From: a virus
Strand: one strand, 5' to 3'
Length of the DNA: 34,174 bases
IMG/VR virus record: IMGVR_UViG_3300035181_000879
Span: 1 to 34,174 of that record
The position numbers and the translations under genes are program-made. Below the pieces are notes generated by a model. It had not been told where the DNA came from and did not search any database. It worked only from the letters and a program-made list of their open reading frames with translations. Shown here in pieces: positions 4,577 to 34,174 of the stretch; the first letter of the stretch is position 1, and every line of letters begins with the position of its first letter.

Positions 4577-5131
4577 TCAAGATTCCAGAATCTTGTATAT
4601 TGTTGCGCGTGATACATTTAATTTAAATGCAATTTGTCTAATACTAATGTTTTTATTTTTTAATTCTTTAGCCTCAAGAGAAAGTTTATTAGTAATTTTG
4701 GATGGTCTTCCGCAGTGTTTTCCTGAGCGTTTAGCGGCATCCAAACCTTCGCGCTGTCTAGCTCTAATCATGGTTCGCTCAAATTCTGCAAATGCACCCA
4801 TTATTTGTAAAGTTAGTGTATCCATTGGGTTTTTAGTGGCATTAAATGTAAGATTTTCTTTTATAAACTTTACTGACACACCTTTTTCAATCAATGTATT
4901 GATAATGCCTTGCAAGTCCAATAGATTTCTAGCTAATCTATCAATGCTATGAACAACCAGCATATCCCCTTCTCTTACATATTCCATACAAGCAACAAGA
5001 CTTTCACGGTCTTTAGTAGATCCACTCATAATGTCGACAAACTCCTTGTCTAATTTTATTCCAAATAACTGCCTATCTATACTTTGACCTTGAGATGAAA
5101 CCCTTATATATCCTACAATTTGACCACTCAT
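4577..5131 (-). CDS. Small serine recombinase (resolvase/invertase family)
   Basis: A 184-residue protein, the usual size of Tn3-type resolvases and Hin/Gin invertases. ATG 5131 is chosen because it overlaps the stop of the upstream membrane-protein gene (ATGA). The catalytic domain begins GYIRVSSQGQSIDRQ, with the nucleophile serine in the VSS motif. It continues with GDMLVVHSIDRLARN, which holds the conserved active-site arginines, and GAFAEFERTMIRARQREGL at the start of the long E helix. The C-terminus (about 135-184: GRPSKI, ISIRQIAFKLNVSRATIYKIL) is a Hin-type helix-turn-helix. It lacks the large C-terminal region of serine integrases, so it more likely resolves multimers or inverts DNA than integrates. 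It lies next to the tail-fibre module, as invertases often do. Confidence 0.92.
   Translation of the reverse strand: MSGQIVGYIRVSSQGQSIDRQLFGIKLDKEFVDIMSGSTKDRESLVACMEYVREGDMLVVHSIDRLARNLLDLQGIINTLIEKGVSVKFIKENLTFNATKNPMDTLTLQIMGAFAEFERTMIRARQREGLDAAKRSGKHCGRPSKITNKLSLEAKELKNKNISIRQIAFKLNVSRATIYKILES
4578..4595. repeat. Palindrome with 2-bp centre at the end of the recombinase gene
   Basis: CAAGATTC and GAATCTTG form perfect 8-bp arms around a 2-bp centre (CA on the plus strand). It overlaps the last codons of the recombinase and the ribosome site of the next gene. An inverted repeat with a 2-bp core is the geometry of serine-recombinase crossover sites. It could equally be a small RNA hairpin that tunes translation of the downstream gene. 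Confidence 0.5.
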
Positions 5132-5370
5132 GCTATATGCAAGTAATGAAGGATGGCAGGCAACCAAATAGATCCTAAAATAATACTAAACATTAACATA
5201 AATTTATTATCTAAATGTTTCAATCCAATATCTATTTTATTATCTAATCGCGATATCCCATTCTCTAATGAATCAAATCTTTTATCATTAATCTTAAATA
5301 ATTCTGAATGCAATCTTAATTGTATTTCATGCTCAATATAGCTTTCATCTGTTCTATTCAATATAGTCAT
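5128..5370 (-). CDS. Small coiled-coil membrane protein, copy A (paralogue of 12032-12184)
   Basis: An 80-residue protein with a strong AGGAGGG site before ATG 5370. Residues 11-27 read YIEHEIQLRLHSELFKI. Residues about 28-56 look like a coiled coil with LDN repeats (SRLDNKIDIGLKHLDNKF). Residues 57-76 are one membrane segment (FSIILGSIWLPAILHYL). Its ends match the 50-residue protein at 12032-12184. The topology resembles small phage holin, antiholin or hemolysin-XhlA-like proteins, but its place in the leftward module, far from the endolysin, leaves the role open. Its stop overlaps the recombinase start. Confidence 0.75.
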   Translation of the reverse strand: MTILNRTDESYIEHEIQLRLHSELFKINDKRFDSLENGISRLDNKIDIGLKHLDNKFMLMFSIILGSIWLPAILHYLHIA

Positions 5371-5701: not shown

Positions 5702-6328
5702 TTAGGCGTTTTCTTTTCTGAGGCATGATTGACATTTGGAGTTATAGTCTTTGAATTTAGAATTAGAGTTTTTCCCAAGACTAAGATTTGCTCGCCCAAG
5801 AATTGTTTTTATTTCTACAAGAGACTTCTTTCCAAGGTTAGGAGTTTTGAGTAATTGGTGTTCACACCAGCACAGCAAATCACCTATGGTTTTTACTCCT
5901 TCCGTTTTCAAACAATTAACCGTTCTTGTTGATAGCCAATTATCGCGAGACCAGTTTTCAGACTCTATTTGAAAATCTGAAAGCAAGATGTCCTCTTGAG
6001 GAATTTTAGGGATGTATTTTTCTTTTAAAACCTTTACTGTTTTTTCATCAACAATATTATCAATATGCTTTTGAACCTTTCGTTCAACATTATAATCATC
6101 TACATATCTGCCAATAACGCTTAAAAATTCATTATTTATAAATGCCATCATTTTCTGTTCCATATCTGGCATTTTTATTTCATAAAACATTTTTCTAATA
6201 ATATTTTCAATTTTTGTTTCATTTATTTGCTCTAATATCATTTGATCTAAATTTCTATATAACTCTTCCTTATGTCTCATTAATATGGAAAATATCAACT
6301 GCTGGAACATAGACATTTCTTTGCTCAT
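5702..6328 (-). CDS. RNA polymerase alpha-CTD domain protein
   Basis: A 208-residue protein with an AAAGG site before ATG 6328. Residues about 130-185 match the C-terminal domain of the bacterial RNA polymerase alpha subunit: [20 protein letters not shown], then [20 protein letters not shown] and LSLG. The residues that in E. coli alpha contact UP-element DNA (R265, N268, C269, G296, K298, S299, E302) all have counterparts: R135, N138, C139, G166, K168, S169, E172. The alpha N-terminal assembly domain is absent. Residues 1-125 are a helical, charged region of no recognised family. A C-x-x-C pair lies near the C-terminus (199-202). It probably binds promoter DNA or host activators and so redirects host transcription (inference). 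Confidence 0.88.
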
Positions 6329-7981: not shown

Positions 7982-8011
7982 TTGTGTCTCCTCCTTAGTT
8001 TAATTTATTCA

Positions 8012-8203
8012 TTACCATTTTGCCGGACAGTCCATGCATTGATTGCAATTGTATCCTTCACAACTATTTTCATGCTCGCAGTAGTTTTCAATCATTGCAT
8101 CAATTTTCTTTAATAAAGCTGTCCGATATTCTATGTTTTTGTGCCGTACATATCCTATTCCATCTTCAATTACAATTAGCTCTTCTTTCGTGAAATCGTT
8201 CAT
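8012..8203 (-). CDS. Small helical protein with Cys-rich C-terminus
   Basis: A 63-residue protein. ATG 8203 overlaps the stop of the upstream 55-residue gene (ATGA), with GGAG 8 bases before it. The N-terminal half (FTKEELIVIEDGIGYVRHKN, then TALLKKIDAMIENYC) resembles the common small phage proteins made of two helices that count bound partners. The C-terminus has six Cys and His residues (YCEHENSCEGYNCNQCMDCP) that could bind zinc. Function unknown. Confidence 0.65.
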   Translation of the reverse strand: MNDFTKEELIVIEDGIGYVRHKNIEYRTALLKKIDAMIENYCEHENSCEGYNCNQCMDCPAKW

Positions 8204-8367
8204 TCTTCAATCTCCAAACATTGATAATGCTTACATGAAGTCCAGCCGTCCTTTGATTCCTTAAATTGTTTGCCAGCATTTATGCATTGATTTTTTGATT
8301 TAACATTAATATTAATCATTCCTTTTGAGTCGCATGTCATCCATAAAATTAAAATCCATGTGCTCAT
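8200..8367 (-). CDS. Small probable exported Cys-rich protein
   Basis: A 55-residue gene. ATG 8367 overlaps the stop of the oxygenase-like gene (ATGA), has GGAG 7 bases before it, and its own stop overlaps the start of the next gene. Residues 1-11 (MSTWILILWMT) are hydrophobic. Four Cys follow in a CDSKG, QCINAGKQF, GWTSCKHYQC pattern typical of small disulfide-bonded exported phage proteins. Coupling at both ends strongly supports translation. Function unknown. Confidence 0.7.
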   Translation of the reverse strand: MSTWILILWMTCDSKGMININVKSKNQCINAGKQFKESKDGWTSCKHYQCLEIEE

Positions 8368-8669
8368 ATGCAAACTCCAAAACTAAGTATTAGCCCCTTT
8401 TCCAATGTGACTCCAAAAGAGTGCATTCTATCTGCTCTAAATAAATCGAACCTTCCGCGCAACTTCAAAAAATTATCCGTATGGCATAATCTATTTTTGC
8501 CTAAAAGTTGTATATTTAATCTGTAATGTTTTTTGTTGGCAACATCATCTGTATGATACCCAACCGCACACCCTGCTGAGTAACCTATTAAATAACAATC
8601 AAAACGCCAAAATGAATAAATCTTTAGCTTATTATAGAAATAATTTTGACGGCCTTTAACCAATTTCAT
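8364..8669 (-). CDS. Minimal 2OG-Fe(II) oxygenase-like protein
   Basis: A 101-residue protein. ATG 8669 overlaps the stop of the zinc-ribbon gene (ATGA), with GGGGA 9 bases before it. The pattern GCAVGYHTDDV (35-45), YRLNIQLLG (49-57) and RGRFDLFRADRMHSFGVTLE (71-90) followed by KGLILSFG matches the core of 2-oxoglutarate/Fe(II) oxygenases. H39, D41 and H83 would be the metal ligands, and K91 would take the place of the usual co-substrate arginine. About 100 residues is shorter than most of the family, so only the double-stranded beta-helix core is present. In phages such enzymes modify nucleic acid or protein. The target here is unknown and activity is inference. Confidence 0.55.
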   Translation of the reverse strand: MKLVKGRQNYFYNKLKIYSFWRFDCYLIGYSAGCAVGYHTDDVANKKHYRLNIQLLGKNRLCHTDNFLKLRGRFDLFRADRMHSFGVTLEKGLILSFGVCI

Positions 8670-8794
8670 CTGTAAAATTCCCCGCACTTCTTGCATTTAA
8701 ATACACTGTCTTCTGCTTGCTGGTCTGTGATTGCGCGTACTTTTTCTTGGAAACAACTGGGGAATATGCAGTATGTTTTTTCGAAATTGGTCAT
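8666..8794 (-). CDS. Zinc-ribbon peptide
   Basis: A 42-residue gene. ATG 8794 overlaps the stop of the Tad2-like gene, and its stop overlaps the start of the oxygenase-like gene, so it is coupled at both ends. Residues 9-14 (CIFPSC) and 34-37 (CKKC, followed by GEFYR) give a Cys4 zinc ribbon. Such mini-ribbons often act as nucleic-acid adaptors. The specific role is unknown. Confidence 0.7.
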   Translation of the reverse strand: MTNFEKTYCIFPSCFQEKVRAITDQQAEDSVFKCKKCGEFYR

Positions 8795-9171
8795 TGAACA
8801 ATCATCCAATCTTCGGCCGCAAAATCATTAAATTGCGGCATAAAGGGGAAGCTATCCATTGAATGGATGACCAGCGTATTTTCTGATGTGTCTAAATATA
8901 TATAGCAATCAAGCCATGTCTTAATACGTGCACGATAACCTGATTGCAAAAGCGGTATAATCTCACTAAAACTATATTCATTCGATGTATCATCATCAAC
9001 AAGCCAACTATCTGATATCATAATGTCTTCGCTGTAATAATAGTTTTGCAAAACAGGCTGAAAGGATTTTACGTTTTCATCCTCCATAAGAAAATATAAA
9101 CCATTAGAATAGATTTGCCGAGTTACCTTTTTGCCTTCTTTCAAAGCATTCACCGCATCACAGAACTTCAC
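8791..9171 (-). CDS. Tandem Tad2-like (DUF2829) protein, candidate Thoeris anti-defence
   Basis: A 126-residue protein starting at GTG 9171, which overlaps the stop of the upstream gene (GTGA) with GGGGA 6 bases before it. Residues 2-19 (KFCDAVNALKEGKKVTRQ) and 119-126 (AEDWMIVQ) match the start and end of the Tad2/DUF2829 fold, in which F-x-x-A-x-x-x-L-K-x-G-K-K-V-x-R is followed by a closing A-x-DW-x-V. The protein appears to hold two diverged copies: 1-60 (ending DSWLVDD) and 66-126 (FSEIIPLLQSGYRARIKTWL to DFAAEDWMIV). Single-domain Tad2 proteins assemble into multimers that sequester cyclic ADP-ribose signals of Thoeris defence. Similar activity here is inference. Confidence 0.65.
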   Translation of the reverse strand: MKFCDAVNALKEGKKVTRQIYSNGLYFLMEDENVKSFQPVLQNYYYSEDIMISDSWLVDDDTSNEYSFSEIIPLLQSGYRARIKTWLDCYIYLDTSENTLVIHSMDSFPFMPQFNDFAAEDWMIVQ

Positions 9172-9506
9172 CTTTTTCCCCTTGGTTTATCGGCATTTAA
9201 TTGTGGCTTAATTAAGTGCTTAAATTTAAATGATTCATCTGATGGCCAAGTGCTAGGGTCTTCTTTGTCATAATCCCATAGCGGTGGTTCCATTCTTATT
9301 CCGCAATCATCTAAATAGGTGCTTATCTTTAATGCGATAACTTCAATTTCTTTTTGTAAATTAATTTGGTCATACGCACCCATAGGCTGCGGTGCTTCAT
9401 GCCACATCTTATCTTCATCACGGTAGGGTTGAGAATCCTTTAAACGCTTACCAAGAGACTGTGCTTTATCATAATCTTTGCGCCATTCGTTGATATTAAA
9501 TTCCAT
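9168..9506 (-). CDS. Hypothetical phage protein
   Basis: A 112-residue protein. ATG 9506 is chosen because AAAGGTG lies 6 bases upstream; the longer frame would start inside a 13-bp inverted repeat. Residues 1-60 are predicted helical and charged (FNINEWRKDYDKAQSLGKRL, YDQINLQKEIEVIALKISTY). The second half is Trp and Pro rich (PPLWDYDKEDPSTWPSDESF). The C-terminus is basic. No family recognised. Its stop overlaps the Tad2-like start, so the two are likely co-produced. Confidence 0.65.
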   Translation of the reverse strand: MEFNINEWRKDYDKAQSLGKRLKDSQPYRDEDKMWHEAPQPMGAYDQINLQKEIEVIALKISTYLDDCGIRMEPPLWDYDKEDPSTWPSDESFKFKHLIKPQLNADKPRGKR

Positions 9507-9536
9507 TTTCACACCTTTGCATTGTTTAATGTTGTA

Positions 9537-9574
9537 GGTAATTAACCCCATTATTTTACTAGGGGTTAATTACC
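9537..9574. repeat. 13-bp perfect inverted repeat between DUF669 and the next gene
   Basis: GGTAATTAACCCC (9537-9549) and GGGGTTAATTACC (9562-9574) pair perfectly across a 12-base loop. On the plus strand it is followed by TTTTAG. In the minus-strand transcript it would be a stable hairpin 10 bp after the DUF669 stop codon and 30 bp before the next start, suited to 3'-end protection or partial termination that sets the DUF669 dosage. Confidence 0.75.
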
Positions 9575-9584
9575 TTTTAGCTAA

Positions 9585-10067
9585 TTAAAATTGTATGTCA
9601 TCATCAGGGAACGGGGGAACGTCTGTTGCAGGTGACCCAGTAGACACAACAATGTAGTCATCAATCTTGTTTTTATCAGAATAACGACTTCCAGCTGGCT
9701 TGCCTTTAAGCTTATCTGCAGGGATTTCGTTACCTTGCTCAATAGCTACCTTTACACGCACACGATTACCGATAACTACATCAGAACAAAGCTTGCCCGC
9801 TTCATAATCTTTTGTAAGTCCTGCGGCATTTGCAAAACGGATAACCTTCCACATCATCGCCTTAGTAAAGACTAGAAAATCTCTAACATCATGACTTTTG
9901 CCCGTAGCATCAAATACCTGTATGGTCATATCCATCATAGGATTACCACTATTAGCTGACACCTTATCTTCTGATGATAGAATAACGGCATCATATTCGC
10001 CCTCTTTAAGCAGTTGAAACCGCTCTTGGTTTGCTTGTTGTTCTGTGTACACTTCATAATGAAACAT
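9585..10067 (-). CDS. DUF669 family, probable single-stranded DNA binding protein
   Basis: A 160-residue protein with AAAGGAG before ATG 10067. The pattern LKEGEYDAVILSSEDKVSAN, GNPMMDMTIQVFD, VRDFLVF and AGKLCSDVVIGNRVRVKVAI is that of the phage DUF669 family, an OB-fold-like group encoded beside recombination ATPases. The C-terminus (151-160) is PPFPDDDIQF, which imitates the acidic DDDIPF tail by which bacterial SSB recruits repair and replication proteins. Together with the neighbouring Sak4-like ATPase it forms a recombination pair. Confidence 0.8.
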   Translation of the reverse strand: MFHYEVYTEQQANQERFQLLKEGEYDAVILSSEDKVSANSGNPMMDMTIQVFDATGKSHDVRDFLVFTKAMMWKVIRFANAAGLTKDYEAGKLCSDVVIGNRVRVKVAIEQGNEIPADKLKGKPAGSRYSDKNKIDDYIVVSTGSPATDVPPFPDDDIQF

Positions 10068-10275
10068 CTATTTCTCCTTTAATGTGACTCCATCTTTTAT
10101 TTCGAACAATTCTATCTATGGTAGAAATTGATACCCCATAAATTACGGATAACTTAGTACAATTCATTTCTTTTGAATATAATTTTCTTATAGAAATAAT
10201 ATCCTTATCATTTAACTTTGATATTCCATTTTTGATTCCTGGCGATCCTCCATAACCGTTTAACCTTCTATTTGT
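10054..10275 (-). pseudogene. Remnant of an HNH-type homing endonuclease C-terminal HTH domain
   Basis: In the frame overlapping the end of the ATPase gene and the start of the DUF669 gene, the minus strand reads NGYGGSPGIKNGISKLNDKD, then ISIRKLYSKEMNCTKLSVIY, then GVSISTIDRIVRNKRWSHI. This matches the G-x-KNG-x-SKLT-x-x-x-V-x-x-IR linker and helix-turn-helix found at the C-terminus of phage HNH homing endonucleases. No ATG, GTG or TTG precedes the domain in frame and no HNH motif is present, so it appears to be the tail left by a deleted homing gene. An internal start at M48 would give only half the HTH. Confidence 0.6.
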
Positions 10276-11102
10276 TTTTTCAAATGGGAGATAATCTTTA
10301 AAATAGTATCTTCTGGAAGCTCATCAAAACTCATCGAATTAGACTTAGCTAGCCATTTATCAATGGTAGCCTGTGGTACATTTAATAAATCTACGATTCT
10401 TTTAAGTTCTGTTATTTGTTCATCGGTTGCAATTTTCTCTGGGACAGCTTCTTGTTCAAGAATATCTCTTCCATATCTTTTTGCTATTTCATCATAAGAA
10501 AAAGGAAATGTTTCTCCGTCTGGAAATGATGCTATCCTAGATTTTTTAACTAACCCCACCCTTTCTTTTCCACGCTTTTGTACTTCAAATACCAAATCAA
10601 AAAGAAAATCTAACTTTTTGTATCCATCATACGTTTTTCCAAGAACAGATAAATTAGAACCATATTCATTTTTTGAATGACACGTTAAAATTACATTCAT
10701 CGGTAGCCTTAAAAGCAGATTTAATAATTGCTTCATTTTTTTATTGCTATGCGCATAATGACGACCAAACTCAGAACCAACTTCTTTTTCAGACTTATCA
10801 AGTAAATCATTATAAAGTGTAGTCAAAGGGTCTATCACTACTGTTTTATATTCATGTTTTTCTGTTAATAACGATTTTACTTCTTGAATCAATTCATCAA
10901 AATCTGTAGTTTGAAATACAGCACCACCATTATCATTAATGGTATCTACATATTGATCGTTAACACTGCCTTTTTCTGTATCAATTAAATACACTTTTGG
11001 GAAACTTATTGCCGCAGTAGTTTTTCCAGCACCAGCATCACCATAAAACAACGCTTTTAATCTTTTTTCTGTTTTCTCAGGTTTAACGCCTCGTAATGCC
11101 AT
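10260..11102 (-). CDS. Phage RecA-like ATPase (AAA_24, Sak4-type recombinase)
   Basis: A 280-residue protein. ATG 11102 is chosen because AGAGAGG lies 7 bases upstream; the longer frame adds 27 residues without homology. Walker A is GDAGAGKTT (21-29), and Walker B is KTVVIDPLTT with D91. The layout is that of phage AAA_24 ATPases of the Sak4 single-strand annealing group: VYLIDTEKG after Walker A, NVILTCHSKNEY as sensor region, GYKKLDFLFDLVFEV in the C-terminal core. The last 60 residues are a helical extension. These proteins pair ssDNA in phage recombination with an SSB-like partner, here the DUF669 gene downstream. Confidence 0.85.
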   Translation of the reverse strand: MALRGVKPEKTEKRLKALFYGDAGAGKTTAAISFPKVYLIDTEKGSVNDQYVDTINDNGGAVFQTTDFDELIQEVKSLLTEKHEYKTVVIDPLTTLYNDLLDKSEKEVGSEFGRHYAHSNKKMKQLLNLLLRLPMNVILTCHSKNEYGSNLSVLGKTYDGYKKLDFLFDLVFEVQKRGKERVGLVKKSRIASFPDGETFPFSYDEIAKRYGRDILEQEAVPEKIATDEQITELKRIVDLLNVPQATIDKWLAKSNSMSFDELPEDTILKIISHLKKQIEG

Positions 11103-11192
11103 CTCAATTACCTCTCTTCTTAAATAACCATAAAGTCTTGCTTCTCTTGAAGCTGATACGTTCTTTAGCTTTAATACAGTCACGCATAACCA

Positions 11193-12184: not shown

Positions 12185-12210
12185 TTCTATACCTACTAAT
12201 TAAGAAGCCA

Positions 12211-12393
12211 TTATACCGTGGTATCTTTAGGTGTCAACCTTTTTTCTATTATTTTTCTATGTTTGTCTACACATTTAAGAATAATTTCAATCATGGATAC
12301 CTCTAATCGCAACGATTCGGTTCTCAAAAATATCCACATGTCTTTAGGCATTCTTACACTAAACGCTTTTAATTCTTGGTTGTTCTTTTTCAT
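12211..12393 (-). CDS. Ribbon-helix-helix (Arc/MetJ-type) repressor
   Basis: A 60-residue protein with AAGGG 9 bases before ATG 12393. Residues 8-50 show the RHH layout: beta strand LKAFSVRMP (8-16), helix KDMWIFLRTESLRLEV, a turn, then helix MIEIILKCVDKHRKIIEKRL. It is the first gene of the leftward operon. Palindromic ATACC-GGTAT type sites lie in its promoter region (12423-12458), at its own 3' end (12213-12224) and before the 16325 gene (16621-16636), so it likely represses itself and the second unit (inference). Confidence 0.8.
   Translation of the reverse strand: MKKNNQELKAFSVRMPKDMWIFLRTESLRLEVSMIEIILKCVDKHRKIIEKRLTPKDTTV
12213..12224. promoter_or_regulatory. Operator-like palindrome ATACC-GT-GGTAT
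   Basis: ATACCGTGGTAT overlaps the last codons and stop of the RHH gene, just upstream of the 50-residue membrane gene. Its half-sites are identical to those at 16621-16636. It may modulate the rest of the leftward operon. Confidence 0.5.
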
Positions 12394-18970: not shown

Positions 18971-19164
18971 TGCAATGCAAATCCTGTAATTACCCAGATT
19001 CTCGTGTTGTTAAAACCACCCATGACGATAAAGTTAATCAAATCTATCGCAGACGCGAATGCATCAAATGTGGAGACCGATTCACGACTCAAGAGCACAT
19101 GCGCGAAAACTACAAAGGGTCTGACTATAAGACTCAGCCACCACGGGCGATATTAGATAAATGA
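18970..19164 (+). CDS. NrdR-like zinc-ribbon protein without ATP-cone
   Basis: A 64-residue protein overlapping the previous stop by one base. Residues 1-42 match the zinc-ribbon of the transcription regulator NrdR: MQCKSCNYPDSRVV, then IYRRRECIKCGDRFTTQE, with ligands C3, C6, C31, C34 and the RRREC-x-x-CG-x-RFTT signature. The ATP-cone that follows in bacterial NrdR is absent. NrdR represses ribonucleotide reductase genes through this ribbon. The phage fragment could bind the same boxes or act as a late-gene activator like Ogr (inference). Confidence 0.75.
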   Translation: MQCKSCNYPDSRVVKTTHDDKVNQIYRRRECIKCGDRFTTQEHMRENYKGSDYKTQPPRAILDK

Positions 19165-20717
19165 GAACAGCATCCGAGATACGGCATCGTATTGCAGAAA
19201 TAGAGCATCAGCGCAAGAAAGGATTCGAGTGTCAGATCACAATCAAGAACAAAGGAATGGTTATACATGCAACCAATGAAGATAAAATCTACGTCCCTAC
19301 AAACACGGGTCTTATTGCTCATAACGATGATAGCTTTGTGCGTGTCATTATGGGGCCTTATGGTAGCGGAAAAAGTACATGGGCTCTCACTGAAATTGTA
19401 CAGCGCGCCTGTAGTGTGCCCATCTGGCATGCCGGAAGACGACGAAGCAGATGGGCAATCGTTCGGAACACGTCTGGGGAACTATCCAGTACCACTTTAG
19501 CATCGTGGTTATCATGGTTTGAAGAACTAGGAGACGTGCGAAAGCGTCAAAAACCTATCATGACCTATGAACACAGCTTTAATGACGGGCATGGCATCGT
19601 AGAACTAGAGTTGTTGTTTATAGCCCTTGATAGGCCCGAGGATGTACGCAAGATTAAATCCTTGGAGTTAACTGGTTGTTACATCAACGAGCTGTCAGAG
19701 GTTCCACAAGCAGCTTTAGCGCATATGAAAGGCCGTGTAAATCGTTATCCTAGCAAAGCATTTTGTCATGAGCCTTATTGGTCGGGCATTATTGCAGATA
19801 CGAACCCGCCAGAAGACGATCACTGGATATATAAAGACTTTGAATTAAATACATATGAGCACCATAAGCTATTTAAACAACCTCCGGGTTTAATCAAAAA
19901 TGATGATAACAAGTGGGTTAGAAACCCTAGTGCAGATAATGCTAGTCATTTACCTGACAATTACTATGAGATGTTGGCAGAGGGACAATCTCAAGAATTT
20001 ATTAAAGTATTTTGTCTTGGCGAATATGGTTCTGTGGGTTTTGGTAAGCGTGTCTATCCAGAATTTAACCCTGATTTTCACGCAGTGGATTCTCTGGCTG
20101 CTATCCAAGGTGAGCAACTTATTCTTGGTTGGGACTTTGGTCTTACTCCTGCTTGCGTGGTTATACAGCTCTCTGCCCGTGGACAACTATTGATATTGAA
20201 GGAATATGTAGGCGATGGTATGGGCATTAGAACCTTTGCGGAAGCCATTGTTGTTCCGGGTATTGCAAGAGATTTTCCATATTGTAAAGTAGGGTTATCG
20301 ATTGGCGACCCTGCAGGTAATGCACGCAATGAAATCGTTGAAGAAATGTCATGTATTGGTGAGCTTAATAGTCTGGGCATACCAACCCATAGTGCGCGTA
20401 CTAATGATATTGACCCGCGCCTTGGTTCAGTTCGCTACTTCCTTAATCGCATGGTGGATGGTAAGCCCGGATTGGTTCTTGATAGGAAGCTTTGCCCATC
20501 TTTATTTAAAGGATTTGTTAAAGATTATGTTTTTGCACGTATTGCTGTATCAGGGGAAGAACGTTACAAAGACAAGCCCAATAAAAACATGTCATCTCAC
20601 CCTATGGATGCGCTCGGCTATGCGTGCCTTGAGGTGGCTAGTGATAGGATAACCGCTGATAAAATGGGCGAACAGAAGCATGAGAATATGTATAATCCAG
20701 TGATGAGAATATTTTAA
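19161..20717 (+). CDS. terL: Terminase large subunit
   Basis: A 518-residue packaging motor whose ATG overlaps the preceding stop (ATGA). ATPase domain: Walker A GPYGSGKS (65-72), Walker B with catalytic glutamate CYINELSE (E177), and the coupling segment IIADTNPPEDDHW (210-222). Nuclease domain: GWDFG (D325), IGDPAGNARNE (D383) and HPMDALGYA (D483), which should coordinate the metal ions of an RNase H-like fold. It cuts concatemers and drives DNA into the prohead through the portal. The synteny with P22 suggests headful packaging, in line with the circular contig. Confidence 0.95.
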   Translation: MRTASEIRHRIAEIEHQRKKGFECQITIKNKGMVIHATNEDKIYVPTNTGLIAHNDDSFVRVIMGPYGSGKSTWALTEIVQRACSVPIWHAGRRRSRWAIVRNTSGELSSTTLASWLSWFEELGDVRKRQKPIMTYEHSFNDGHGIVELELLFIALDRPEDVRKIKSLELTGCYINELSEVPQAALAHMKGRVNRYPSKAFCHEPYWSGIIADTNPPEDDHWIYKDFELNTYEHHKLFKQPPGLIKNDDNKWVRNPSADNASHLPDNYYEMLAEGQSQEFIKVFCLGEYGSVGFGKRVYPEFNPDFHAVDSLAAIQGEQLILGWDFGLTPACVVIQLSARGQLLILKEYVGDGMGIRTFAEAIVVPGIARDFPYCKVGLSIGDPAGNARNEIVEEMSCIGELNSLGIPTHSARTNDIDPRLGSVRYFLNRMVDGKPGLVLDRKLCPSLFKGFVKDYVFARIAVSGEERYKDKPNKNMSSHPMDALGYACLEVASDRITADKMGEQKHENMYNPVMRIF

Positions 20718-21225: not shown

Positions 21226-21471
21226 ATGTTGTTATCTGATACAATGGTAGAATTACATGCAGGTCATTCAATGTGTCGTGCTGCATGGACATTAGAGGAT
21301 GGTTATCTGATGCTAATGCCGGGCATGAAGCATGTTTGGAAAATTGTATTGAATCCAGCACCCAATGCAGGAAATTACATATTTTCCGTAGAAGACTTAG
21401 AAGCTTCAGACTGGCAAGTGTTCGAGTTTCCCAGTGCGCCCATTGAAGCAGTATTAGCAGACGCTGCGTAG
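21226..21471 (+). CDS. Second Tad2-like (DUF2829) protein
   Basis: An 81-residue protein with AGGAG before ATG 21226. The pattern MVELHAGHSMCRAAW (7-21), GYLMLMPGMKHVWKI and FSVEDLEASDWQVFE (53-67) fits the DUF2829/Tad2 layout: helix with A-G-x-x-x-x-R-x-x-W, a Y-L strand, then S-x-x-DL-x-A-x-DW-x-V. It is a single-domain form, unlike the tandem protein at 8791-9171, and lies in the structural region just before a terminator. In other phages DUF2829 proteins sequester Thoeris or related nucleotide signals. Activity here is inference. Confidence 0.6.
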   Translation: MLLSDTMVELHAGHSMCRAAWTLEDGYLMLMPGMKHVWKIVLNPAPNAGNYIFSVEDLEASDWQVFEFPSAPIEAVLADAA

Positions 21472-21555: not shown

Positions 21556-23769
21556 ATGGGGCAAGACATGGAAATCATAGCCGAAGGAATGGCGATAGAC
21601 GATTTAGATAGTATCAACGAAGAATTACGCCAACGCCTAGATGACGCAGGCATCGATGAAGCCGAAGTATTAAAAATGGCTCGTGATGACATGGTTCTAT
21701 GGGACGGTTATTTTGGTGAGAATTCTGTTCGTGGAAAGGATGACATGAACTTCCTTTTGCGTGACCAATGGTCAGCAGTTGAGCGTTCGGAATTTAGTCG
21801 TCTATTTAAACCAGCTATGACATTCAACAAGCTTTATGACACCATAAAAAAAGTAATCGGTGAGCAACGTAAGAACAAACCTGACTTAATGGTTCGCTCA
21901 TTAACAGGCAAAGCCACACAGAAACAAATTGATTTACGCGCAGACTTAGTACGAACCATATCATACCAATCACAAAACGATTTAATCTACCAAACAGCTT
22001 TTAAACAGGCAATGATGATGGGCTACGGGGCATTTGAAATATGTCTTGAATACGAGAACCCCAAATCATTTAACCAAATTATTAAATACGAATTAATTCC
22101 TGATGTAACACGCACATCTTTTGACCCTACCGCATTAAAGCCCCATAAAGGCGATGGTAACTTTTGCGCACGTCAATATGTTTACACCAAAGAAGAATTC
22201 TATGCGACATATCCGCATGTCATGAATCCGGTATCATATTCTGACCCACGTTCTTTACTGGATTTCCAGTGGGAAACGCGAGACACCATTGTTGTCTGTA
22301 AATATACCTGCAAAGAATGGTATCCCGTAAAACTCTATCTTTTATCTGATGGACAGTCGGTCACTGAAGATGAATGGGAAGACATGCAAGAAGACATTAA
22401 GATGCAGACAGACCTTGCAGATGCGTCGGAAGTGGTAGGCGATATTATTCGCAAAAGCATCCCTGAAATCGTTGGGGAGCGCATGAGCAAAGATTATAAA
22501 ATACGCCAGTATGTACTCACACAAAATCAAATCATTGAATTTAATGACTGGCCTTCTAAATACTTACCCATAATCTTTGTGGATGGTGATTCGAATTACA
22601 TTAACGGTCAACAATATACGCGCTCGTTTATCCATGAGGCCAAAGATGCGCAAAAGTTTGTCAACTATGTAGGTTCTGAAATTGCAGCGGAAATTAAAAA
22701 CCGTAGACGCGAACAATGGATGGGTACACCGGATAATATTTTAGGCAATGAACAAATGTGGCGTAACCCTGAATTACAGTCAGGTATTCTAATAGCAAAA
22801 CCCGATCCTAAAACAGGCGCTATGCCGAATAAGCTACCTGCATGGGAACTATCACCAACCCTTCTGCAACAATTCCAACGTGGCTCGCAAGATATTCGCG
22901 AGATTCTTGGGTTCTCAGAAAACGAGGCTCTTCAAGGCCATGACATGTCAGGCAAAGCTCGTCGTGAGCGTAAAATTGAAGGATCAATGTCAGCATATGT
23001 GTGGTTTGATAATCTTAATCAGTCTATTGAACAAGGTGGGCGTGTTGTATTGGACTTATTGCCTGTAATTGCCGGTGAAAATGAGCGTCATATGGTGATA
23101 TCTAAAGCCGACGGTCGCAGTGATTCTATTACCTTGAATAAGGTTACAGGTGAAAACGAAAACGGTGAGAAAATACTTGAAAATACGCTAGATGCCGGTA
23201 ACTATGATATTGAAATTGATACAGGGCCAAGTTTTGCTGTACAGAAAGAAGTCGCATTAGAGTTCATGCAGCAGACCTTGCAAGCCAATCCTACTGTTTT
23301 CCCATTAATTGCAGACCTTTGGGCGAAGAATTTAGATGTGCAATTTATGCCACAGATTGCTGAAAGATTTAAAACGCTGGTTCCTCCTGAGGTATTGGCC
23401 AAAGAAGCAGGTCAACCACCACCGCCTCCTAAACCTAATCCTCAGCAAATGATGGCAGAGCAGCAGATGAAAGCTCAACAACAGCAAATGATGATTAATG
23501 AACAGAAGATGCATCTTGAAGAGCAGGCATTGATGGAGCGTGCAGAAGAGTTAAAGATTCGCAAAGAGAAGCATATGTTAGATCAGGCCGAAATGATTCT
23601 AAAAGCACAAGAAATGAAAATTAAAATGGGTCTAGAACAACAGAAGATTAAGGTTGAGCATGGAAAGTTATTGCTTGATGCAGATAAGGCAGAAAAAGAC
23701 TTTAGTACGAAAATTGCAGGTGTAATGTCAGATTTACATCGACACAATAACCCACATGAACGTGGGTAA
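21556..23769 (+). CDS. Portal protein (P22 type)
   Basis: A 737-residue protein; P22 gp1 is 725. ATG 21556 has only a weak ribosome site. ATG 21568, preceded by GGATGGGG, would give 733 residues and may be the true start. Signatures of the P22 portal family include NFLLRDQWSAVERSEFSRLF, TFNKLYDTIKKVIGEQRKNK, FKQAMMMGYGAFEICLEYEN and FDPTALKPHKGDG. The last 130 residues are Gln, Met and Lys-rich coiled coil (QQMMAEQQMKAQQQQMMINE), corresponding to the barrel of P22 portal. It forms the dodecameric vertex for packaging and ejection. Confidence 0.93.
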   Translation: MGQDMEIIAEGMAIDDLDSINEELRQRLDDAGIDEAEVLKMARDDMVLWDGYFGENSVRGKDDMNFLLRDQWSAVERSEFSRLFKPAMTFNKLYDTIKKVIGEQRKNKPDLMVRSLTGKATQKQIDLRADLVRTISYQSQNDLIYQTAFKQAMMMGYGAFEICLEYENPKSFNQIIKYELIPDVTRTSFDPTALKPHKGDGNFCARQYVYTKEEFYATYPHVMNPVSYSDPRSLLDFQWETRDTIVVCKYTCKEWYPVKLYLLSDGQSVTEDEWEDMQEDIKMQTDLADASEVVGDIIRKSIPEIVGERMSKDYKIRQYVLTQNQIIEFNDWPSKYLPIIFVDGDSNYINGQQYTRSFIHEAKDAQKFVNYVGSEIAAEIKNRRREQWMGTPDNILGNEQMWRNPELQSGILIAKPDPKTGAMPNKLPAWELSPTLLQQFQRGSQDIREILGFSENEALQGHDMSGKARRERKIEGSMSAYVWFDNLNQSIEQGGRVVLDLLPVIAGENERHMVISKADGRSDSITLNKVTGENENGEKILENTLDAGNYDIEIDTGPSFAVQKEVALEFMQQTLQANPTVFPLIADLWAKNLDVQFMPQIAERFKTLVPPEVLAKEAGQPPPPPKPNPQQMMAEQQMKAQQQQMMINEQKMHLEEQALMERAEELKIRKEKHMLDQAEMILKAQEMKIKMGLEQQKIKVEHGKLLLDADKAEKDFSTKIAGVMSDLHRHNNPHERG

Positions 23770-32807: not shown

Positions 32808-34174
32808 ATGTCTATAACTTACATACAAGCAGCGCAGCCAATTTGGTATGTAGCCGGTCTAGATGGATTGGCCGCGGGTGGGGCACAACTATTTACTTAT
32901 GATTCATTAACGAGAACGCCTCGTGCGGCATATCAAGACCCTGCGGGAAATGAACCCTATCCTAATCCTATTATATTTAATCTTAATGGCACAAATCCTC
33001 CTATCTATTGGCAAGTAGATACTACAAAGCCTAATGGTTACTATATTGAAATGTATGATTCAAATGGTAATTTATTATGGGATGAGGATAATTTTCCCGG
33101 AGCAAGTTCAGGTGGTGGAAGTGATGTTACGACATATATACCGATTGTAAACTACATCACCAATAACCAGTTTATTAATCATATAGCACCTACAACTACC
33201 GCATTAACAACTAATTTTGTGGTTGCCCCATCTAATCATAAAGGATTCACCCCTTCACTAATTAACCCAATTATTAGCACGTATGGGGTTGTGGGGCCAG
33301 ACATACAATTTAATAAGAATAATACAAATGCTACGGATAATATTACATTTCCTTTATTTGCATTATCTAGTGCTCCATTAACAGGTGATGTTACGCCAGT
33401 GGAGTATGTTCATTATCAATGCACCAACAGTCCTACAGGTGAAACATATAAGAATTTTCAGTTCCCCATCACTCAGAAAGTAAAAAATCTATCTGGGCAA
33501 GCGATGACATTTAATATTTGGGCGGCTGTTACATCATCACCTGTGACAATTAATATTTATATCAGGCAATATTTTGGTTCTGGCACTTCTGCAAGTCCTG
33601 ACTCACGCACACTGATAGGTTCATGCGTATTATCGAGTACTTGGACATCATTTCCTTTCCAATTTACAGTGCCTTCTGTAGCTGGCTTATCTATTGGTAC
33701 ACCCGGATTGCAGACAGACGATGATGCTGTTTATATTCAGGTTGAAATGCCTTTAGGGGCACCGTGTGAAGTATCATTTATAAAACCTTGCCTATATTTA
33801 GGGACAATAGATCCAAAATTAGAATTTGAAATATACGACCAAATCGATTCCATTGATTCGACTGCAAGAACAGGCGATATAAAAACAAGTCTTATCTCAT
33901 CACATCCTCAGGGATGGGTAGCTATGAATGATGGATCAATCGGAAATACAGGCTCAGGTGCTACTAATGCGGCAGGTGCTTATACATTCCAACTTTACAA
34001 AACAATCTGGGATGGGGTCATTGATACATGGGCACCGGTTTCTACCGGTAGAGGTGCTACGGCTCAAGCAGATTTCTTGGCTGGAAAGACATTAACATTG
34101 CCCTTATCATTAGGTCGCGCCCTAGCTGGTGCAGGTGCTGGTTCTGGATTGCCTACTTATGCACTTGGTGAAAA
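32808..34174 (+). CDS. Tail fibre protein, 5' part (continues at base 1)
   Basis: The gene starts at ATG 32808 with AAGGA 9 bases upstream, after a 171-bp AT-rich interval without recognisable genes. It stays open to the window end and continues at 1-338, giving 525 residues. The N-terminus (QPIWYVAGLDGLAAGGAQLF, TYDSLTRTPRAAYQDPAGNE, PIIFNLNGTNPPIYW, YYIEMYDSNGNLLWDEDNF) is a common phage fibre attachment domain. Residues about 175-345 form a carbohydrate-binding-like beta domain. From about 360 (RTGDIKTSLISSHPQGWVAM, then NDGSIGN) the tail-collar domain begins. It is probably the main adhesin in the position of the P22 tailspike. Confidence 0.85.
   Translation, partial: MSITYIQAAQPIWYVAGLDGLAAGGAQLFTYDSLTRTPRAAYQDPAGNEPYPNPIIFNLNGTNPPIYWQVDTTKPNGYYIEMYDSNGNLLWDEDNFPGASSGGGSDVTTYIPIVNYITNNQFINHIAPTTTALTTNFVVAPSNHKGFTPSLINPIISTYGVVGPDIQFNKNNTNATDNITFPLFALSSAPLTGDVTPVEYVHYQCTNSPTGETYKNFQFPITQKVKNLSGQAMTFNIWAAVTSSPVTINIYIRQYFGSGTSASPDSRTLIGSCVLSSTWTSFPFQFTVPSVAGLSIGTPGLQTDDDAVYIQVEMPLGAPCEVSFIKPCLYLGTIDPKLEFEIYDQIDSIDSTARTGDIKTSLISSHPQGWVAMNDGSIGNTGSGATNAAGAYTFQLYKTIWDGVIDTWAPVSTGRGATAQADFLAGKTLTLPLSLGRALAGAGAGSGLPTYALGE
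34048..34174. repeat. Direct terminal repeat, copy 2
   Basis: Identical to bases 1-127; see the entry there. Genes in this stretch are counted once in the circular genome. Confidence 0.95.

Follow-up and report, generated by a model that had tools for sequence, protein, structure and literature searches.

A predicted tandem Tad2-like protein in the early operon of an uncultured podovirus-like phage group

The window analyzed here, a stretch of viral DNA of 34,174 nucleotides, encodes on its minus strand a 126-residue protein whose product almost certainly folds as two Tad2-like units in tandem. The Tad2 domain is used by some phages to soak up bacterial alarm molecules. A fused double version of it appears not to have been described before; we found no mention of a tandem Tad2 in the open-access literature, and an earlier description elsewhere is possible. 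Our overall reading, which we hold with confidence evenly divided for and against, is that one ancient duplication and fusion gave rise to an obligate two-domain Tad2-like (PF11195) protein that is made early and acts as a sponge.

The tandem gene and its two Tad2-like copies

The gene and its parts are as follows.
8791..9171, minus strand: tandem Tad2-like protein, 126 aa, GTG start, matching PF11195 in two stretches (E = 8.9e-13)
8998..9171, minus strand: predicted N-terminal Tad2-like copy, residues 1–58 (helices 3–11 and 49–52; strands 15–18, 26–30, 33–43 and 56–58)
8977..8997, minus strand: short acidic linker between the copies, residues 59–65, placed by alignment and model
8797..8976, minus strand: predicted C-terminal Tad2-like copy, residues 66–125 (helices 68–76 and 114–118; strands 80–83, 90–94, 99–108 and 122–125)

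The reading frame runs from the GTG at 9171 to the stop at 8791, in agreement with the boundaries of the initial annotation. A homolog of 75% identity on contig L002, where the upstream gene order is identical, has an ATG at the equivalent residue, and we therefore judged both the GTG start and the gene to be real.

In Pfam, the whole protein matched PF11195 (Tad2-like, formerly DUF2829) over two stretches with 49.0 bits, well above the curated cut-off of 25 bits. When the halves were searched separately, each matched this family and no other Pfam family: residues 61–126 exceeded the cut-off (28.7 bits, E = 1.9e-6, profile positions 2–73), and residues 1–63 fell slightly below it (24.5 bits, E = 3.9e-5, profile positions 1–46). 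A PF11195 match was present in all 14 of the first homologs collected, and four distant homologs (L061, L087, L097 and L100) each showed two stretches. The best sequence matches in the PDB were Tad2 proteins; a search with the window sequence found them at E ∼0.01, a weak match, and one with a 14-sequence profile at E = 3.4e-4. PADLOC returned no match for the gene, NCBIfam nothing relevant, and Rfam no match within 8000–10200.

Direct comparison of the halves depended on which protein was used. The two halves of the window protein are too diverged for a pairwise test (30% of shuffles gave an equal score), and only 0.15% of shuffles scored as high for the halves of the L002 homolog. Profiles of the N and C halves built from 14 homologs matched each other at E ∼5e-8 over 28 columns. 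Taken together with the two PF11195 stretches and the repeated order of secondary structure in the model described below, this bears out the initial annotation, which had seen two diverged DUF2829 copies in one product. The motif on which that proposal was based is present less evenly: the N copy has the pattern A-x-x-L-K-x-G-K-K-V-x-R, with D-S-W or D-G-W in place of the expected DW, and in the C copy no more than L-x-x-G and a DW close to the end are left.

An AlphaFold model computed from 14 sequences had a mean pLDDT of 90.1 and a pTM of 0.70, and showed the order helix, three strands, helix, strand (alpha-beta-beta-beta-alpha-beta) twice over. The first 11 Foldseek matches in the PDB were all Tad2 chains (probability 0.87–1.00), with noise thereafter, which supports a Tad2-like predicted fold; the E-values were 3e-3 at best, none passing 0.001, and identity in these alignments was only ∼20%. 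Judging by these E-values and by the large rmsd, the search seems to have stretched one Tad2 chain over both units of the model. For the tandem as a whole, no matching structure or viral model was found (TM-score by query ≤0.43). Folded alone, the N half gave as its top six matches in a PDB fold search Tad2 chains (probability 0.82–0.99); its pLDDT was 71, as against 90 in the full protein, a loss that may mean that the N copy relies on its C partner.

Published structures provide the frame in which the residues of the two copies can be read. A review (PMC12043709) describes V-shaped Tad2 dimers, paired via helix alpha2 and strand beta2, which in turn interlock along alpha1 to make a tetramer. 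It places gcADPR in pockets walled by loops of two protomers, the beta1-beta2 loop among them, and describes binding of cyclic dinucleotides by an insertion located between beta2 and beta5. In the model, the position expected for alpha2 and the insertion is taken up in both tandem copies by a tight hairpin of beta2 and its following strand. The alignment showed that the motif GWNGK of the beta1-beta2 loop (G20, W21, N22, G23, K24), nearly invariant in the canonical Tad2s sampled, is missing from both copies. Since two structural hallmarks of classical Tad2 are thus missing, we use the name Tad2-like rather than Tad2.

What is conserved instead differs between the copies. Across the 46 distinct sequences of the family (see below), the N copy keeps R18 in 46 of 46 and W21 in 44 of 46 (the window has Y), and W56 is invariant; the C copy keeps W86 in 46 of 46, has lost the counterpart of the arginine, and has invariant D121 and W122. 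The suggestion in the initial annotation that one site might be degenerate is therefore supported in part, in that the C copy lacks the arginine while retaining its tryptophan and the N copy keeps both positions.

Operon, phage group and family history

The tandem gene belongs to a leftward operon of closely spaced genes, with gaps of −31 to 33 bases except for 192 bases before the DUF669 gene, and a perfect promoter consensus stands ahead of the operon.
12210..12237, minus strand: sigma-70-type consensus TTGACA-N16-TATAAT, 12 of 12 positions matching
10260..11183, minus strand: AAA ATPase of the Sak4-like annealing protein family (PHROG 124, E = 1.2e-25)
9585..10067, minus strand: DUF669/single-strand DNA-binding-like protein (PF05037, E = 1.3e-9; PHROG 378)
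9168..9551, minus strand: upstream ORF of 127 aa with no assigned function, sharing 4 bases with the tandem gene; only 4 loci have homologs
8666..8809, minus strand: small CxxC ORF of 47 aa, called a zinc ribbon in the initial annotation; not conserved beside the tandem gene
8364..8696, minus strand: ORF of 110 aa, called oxygenase-like there (PHROG 13746, function unknown); not conserved beside the tandem gene

Of 47 relatives, 8 have a perfect promoter site ahead of the homologous first gene, compared with 1 of 470 shuffles. In 24 of 26 loci the tandem gene has the AAA (Sak4-like) and DUF669 genes upstream of it; its immediate neighbors vary between phages. This does not support the earlier proposal that coupling to the zinc-ribbon and oxygenase-like genes marks an anti-defence island: neither gene is conserved beside the tandem gene in other loci (the ORF at 8364..8696 also had no Pfam match and no PDB sequence match), and we rejected the apparent linkage, the conserved part being the replication block upstream. 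In 7 of the 26 loci (among them L024, L030, L031, L037 and L040), an ORF of ∼129–227 aa that by eye resembles a metallophosphoesterase (TSDxHFGHxN, GDF, GNHD) stands just upstream of the tandem gene. The operon position suggests early expression, which fits a counter-defence protein and equally a role near replication.

First profile scans of viral contigs yielded 25 full-length tandem homologs at 41–75% identity. A second survey, anchored on the neighboring DUF669 gene and not on the tandem gene itself, added many more, and the number of environmental homologs with full-length tandem organization is now at least 45. Counting the window, there are 46 distinct sequences, all with two domains per chain and with chains of 124–133 aa. 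Among 27 related near-full-length phage records (33–40 kb), 21 carry the tandem gene, in single copy each; the other 6 are without it, and no single-domain Tad2 occupies its position in any of the 27. Among the 16 records picked solely by their DUF669 gene, regardless of the tandem gene, it was present in 10. We read it as a conserved, regular member of the early gene set in an uncultured group of 34–36 kb podovirus-like phages. Scans of bacterial and archaeal genomes gave no relative of the tandem protein, and hence the host was not found.

In a tree of the halves and single-domain proteins, the N halves, the C halves, the canonical Tad2s and copies from a late module (see below) formed one clade each, and the N and C halves grouped together; supports in this tree were 0.81–0.88, values not to be over-read because the halves are short (∼60 residues). 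A single duplication that preceded the family's spread explains the four separate clades and the pairing of the N and C halves, and this duplication, judged from the separate clades, is old. Between the window and L002, dN was 0.12 and dS 1.54 (dN/dS ∼0.08) with little difference between the halves, and by this measure both are under purifying selection.

The same phages carry a third Tad2-like unit.
21226..21471, plus strand: single-domain Tad2-like protein of 81 aa in the late module, PF11195 21.6 bits

This gene sits between the terminase (19161–20717) and a portal-like ORF (21556–23769), and in the window its module and that of the tandem gene run in opposite directions. In relatives, its PF11195 score rises to as much as 42.6 bits. 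The late protein carries NAGN as a nearly invariant motif and has a DW close to the end, belongs to a clade separate from the tandem copies, and is present in 24 of the 27 related records. In 3 of the 27 the late gene occurs alone, and the late protein therefore does not need the tandem protein.

Several further features of the record were noted. Its two ends (1–127 and 34048–34174) are an exact 127-base repeat, and the contig is accordingly either a complete circular assembly or bounded by direct terminal repeats. A serine recombinase of the resolvase family (PF00239, E = 5.4e-37) is encoded at 4577–5167 on the minus strand, with homologs at a similar place in 12 of 26 loci. The 208-aa product of 5702–6328 (minus strand) matches the bacterial RNA polymerase alpha C-terminal domain at residues 132–177 (PF03118, E = 2.1e-16), with ∼57% identity to Salmonella and Acinetobacter alpha over 57 residues and a weak match in 1 of 26 relatives. 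Going by this likeness, the product may redirect host transcription, and it hints at a proteobacterial host.

Proposed assembly and function

We propose that one ancient duplication and fusion of a Tad2-like domain produced an obligate two-domain protein in which the fusion takes over the role of the V-shaped Tad2 dimer. The alpha2 insertion through which Tad2 protomers pair has been lost from both copies, which argues that the fusion replaces the dimer interface; we consider this replacement probable. Two tandem chains would then meet along helix alpha1 to form a pseudo-tetramer. The idea in the initial annotation that a fused duplicate builds the same assembly from fewer chains receives indirect support from this loss and from the lower pLDDT of the N half alone.

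By analogy with Tad2, the tandem protein would act as a counter-defence sponge for a nucleotide-type immune signal, with pockets between copies, and we regard the chances of this function as evenly balanced. The candidate binding site would be altered and asymmetric; because the GWNGK loop is gone, it differs from the classical Tad2 site. Because the tandem protein lacks the insertion by which Tad2 grips cyclic dinucleotides, we would expect an ADP-ribose derivative, not a cyclic dinucleotide, as the ligand. Standing against the sponge are the absence of the GWNGK loop from both copies, fold E-values that miss 0.001, and the lack of a structural match for the whole tandem.

A rival reading is a role outside defence, in which a Tad2-fold protein has been repurposed for an early function and binds a nucleotide or a protein partner of the adjacent replication machinery. 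The AAA (Sak4-like) and DUF669 genes that nearly always lie upstream, the fact that most of the group's records have the tandem gene and the loss of the signature pocket loop from both copies all speak for such a role, and the late single-domain gene suggests that the fold serves more than one task in these phages. High conservation within one phage group would likewise fit a house-keeping role in replication or transcription. However, the closest experimentally characterized relatives (SPO1 Tad2, ModTad2 and SptTad2) are immune-signal sponges, the direct neighbors of the gene change between phages as they do in accessory regions, and 6 of the 27 records are without it. We consider repurposing possible but doubtful.

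A more elaborate form of the sponge would combine both Tad2-like genes: the two copies of the fused pair, acting early, would have diverged to form one or two asymmetric hybrid pockets for an immune signal that known Tad2s do not bind, and the late single-domain protein would act when capsid proteins appear. This extension seems to us rather unlikely; if true, it would amount to a two-stage Tad2 system within one small phage.

Alternatively, the fold might bind no ligand and serve as a protein-protein adaptor, for example in mixed assemblies with the late single-domain protein. Mixed assemblies are conceivable because, in five other viral contigs, a Tad2-like gene of ∼70 codons directly precedes a full-length Tad2 gene, and the third Tad2-like unit at 21226–21471 would supply a partner in the same phages; yet the late gene occurs without the tandem gene in 3 of the 27 records, and in the window the two genes belong to modules of opposite direction, so that we consider an adaptor quite improbable. 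An anti-CRISPR of the AcrIIA7 type is very improbable: AcrIIA7 is reported to carry a DUF2829 domain (PMC6739104), and PDB chains named AcrIIA7 and inhibitor of type II CRISPR-Cas were among the weak profile matches, but at E-values of 0.4 and 0.04, weaker than the 3e-4 of Tad2, and AcrIIA7 is defined by a Cas9 assay.

Comparison with known Tad2-containing proteins

A canonical Tad2 query against 50,697 phage records hit 383 places in 381 records, which makes two canonical copies in one record rare, and none of 80 viral contigs with canonical Tad2 had two complete units in one frame. Double HMM matches in canonical loci were split alignments of one unit and were rejected as tandems. The long profiles PHROG 1048 and PHROG 872 were likewise set aside as tandem families, the long members examined having accessory domains and one Tad2 unit. 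The PHROG 6670 profile, with 120 positions, is matched by the tandem protein in two stretches and, judged from this match, could represent a tandem family.

Other proteins share the domain in different contexts. AcrIIA7 resembles the tandem protein in its reported DUF2829 domain, but it is not known as a tandem and is defined by Cas9 inhibition. In N4-like gp49 and in proteins of phages Pmp13, BS162P1 and SopranoGao (161–208 aa), a Tad2-like unit forms the C-terminal part of a longer protein; the other part is unrelated (Phage_gp49_66 or crAss001_48 where named). The N4-like DUF2829 proteins had been candidates for tandem relatives by their length and tblastn span, and were rejected because of the unrelated N-terminal domain. 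The five contigs mentioned above (L118, at 1259–1770, L121, L122, L123 and L156) present a two-gene counterpart, with a short Tad2-like unit and another Tad2 unit sharing an operon; there, however, the units are not fused, and the downstream one is a canonical Tad2 that has GWNGK.

The reference system is the anti-Thoeris sponge Tad2 of Bacillus phage SPO1, together with its relatives (PF11195; PDB 8sme/8smf, 8v3e, 9eib and 8wjd), which share their Pfam domain with both tandem halves. The likeness lies in the best PDB sequence and fold matches, in the R and W of the N copy and in the DW near the end of the C copy. Whereas Tad2 is a single unit of ∼90 aa that assembles as a homotetramer of single-domain chains, the tandem chain of 124–133 aa holds two domains, each of ∼60 residues, without the alpha2 insertion and GWNGK and with ∼20% identity to Tad2. 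This uncultured phage group uses Tad2-like domains twice, in an early and in a late module, and its tandem protein offers a small target for ligand screening and structure determination. In known Tad2 sponges the pockets lie between separate chains, and a conserved fusion is in this respect a natural experiment on the way in which such assemblies acquire asymmetric sites and new ligands.
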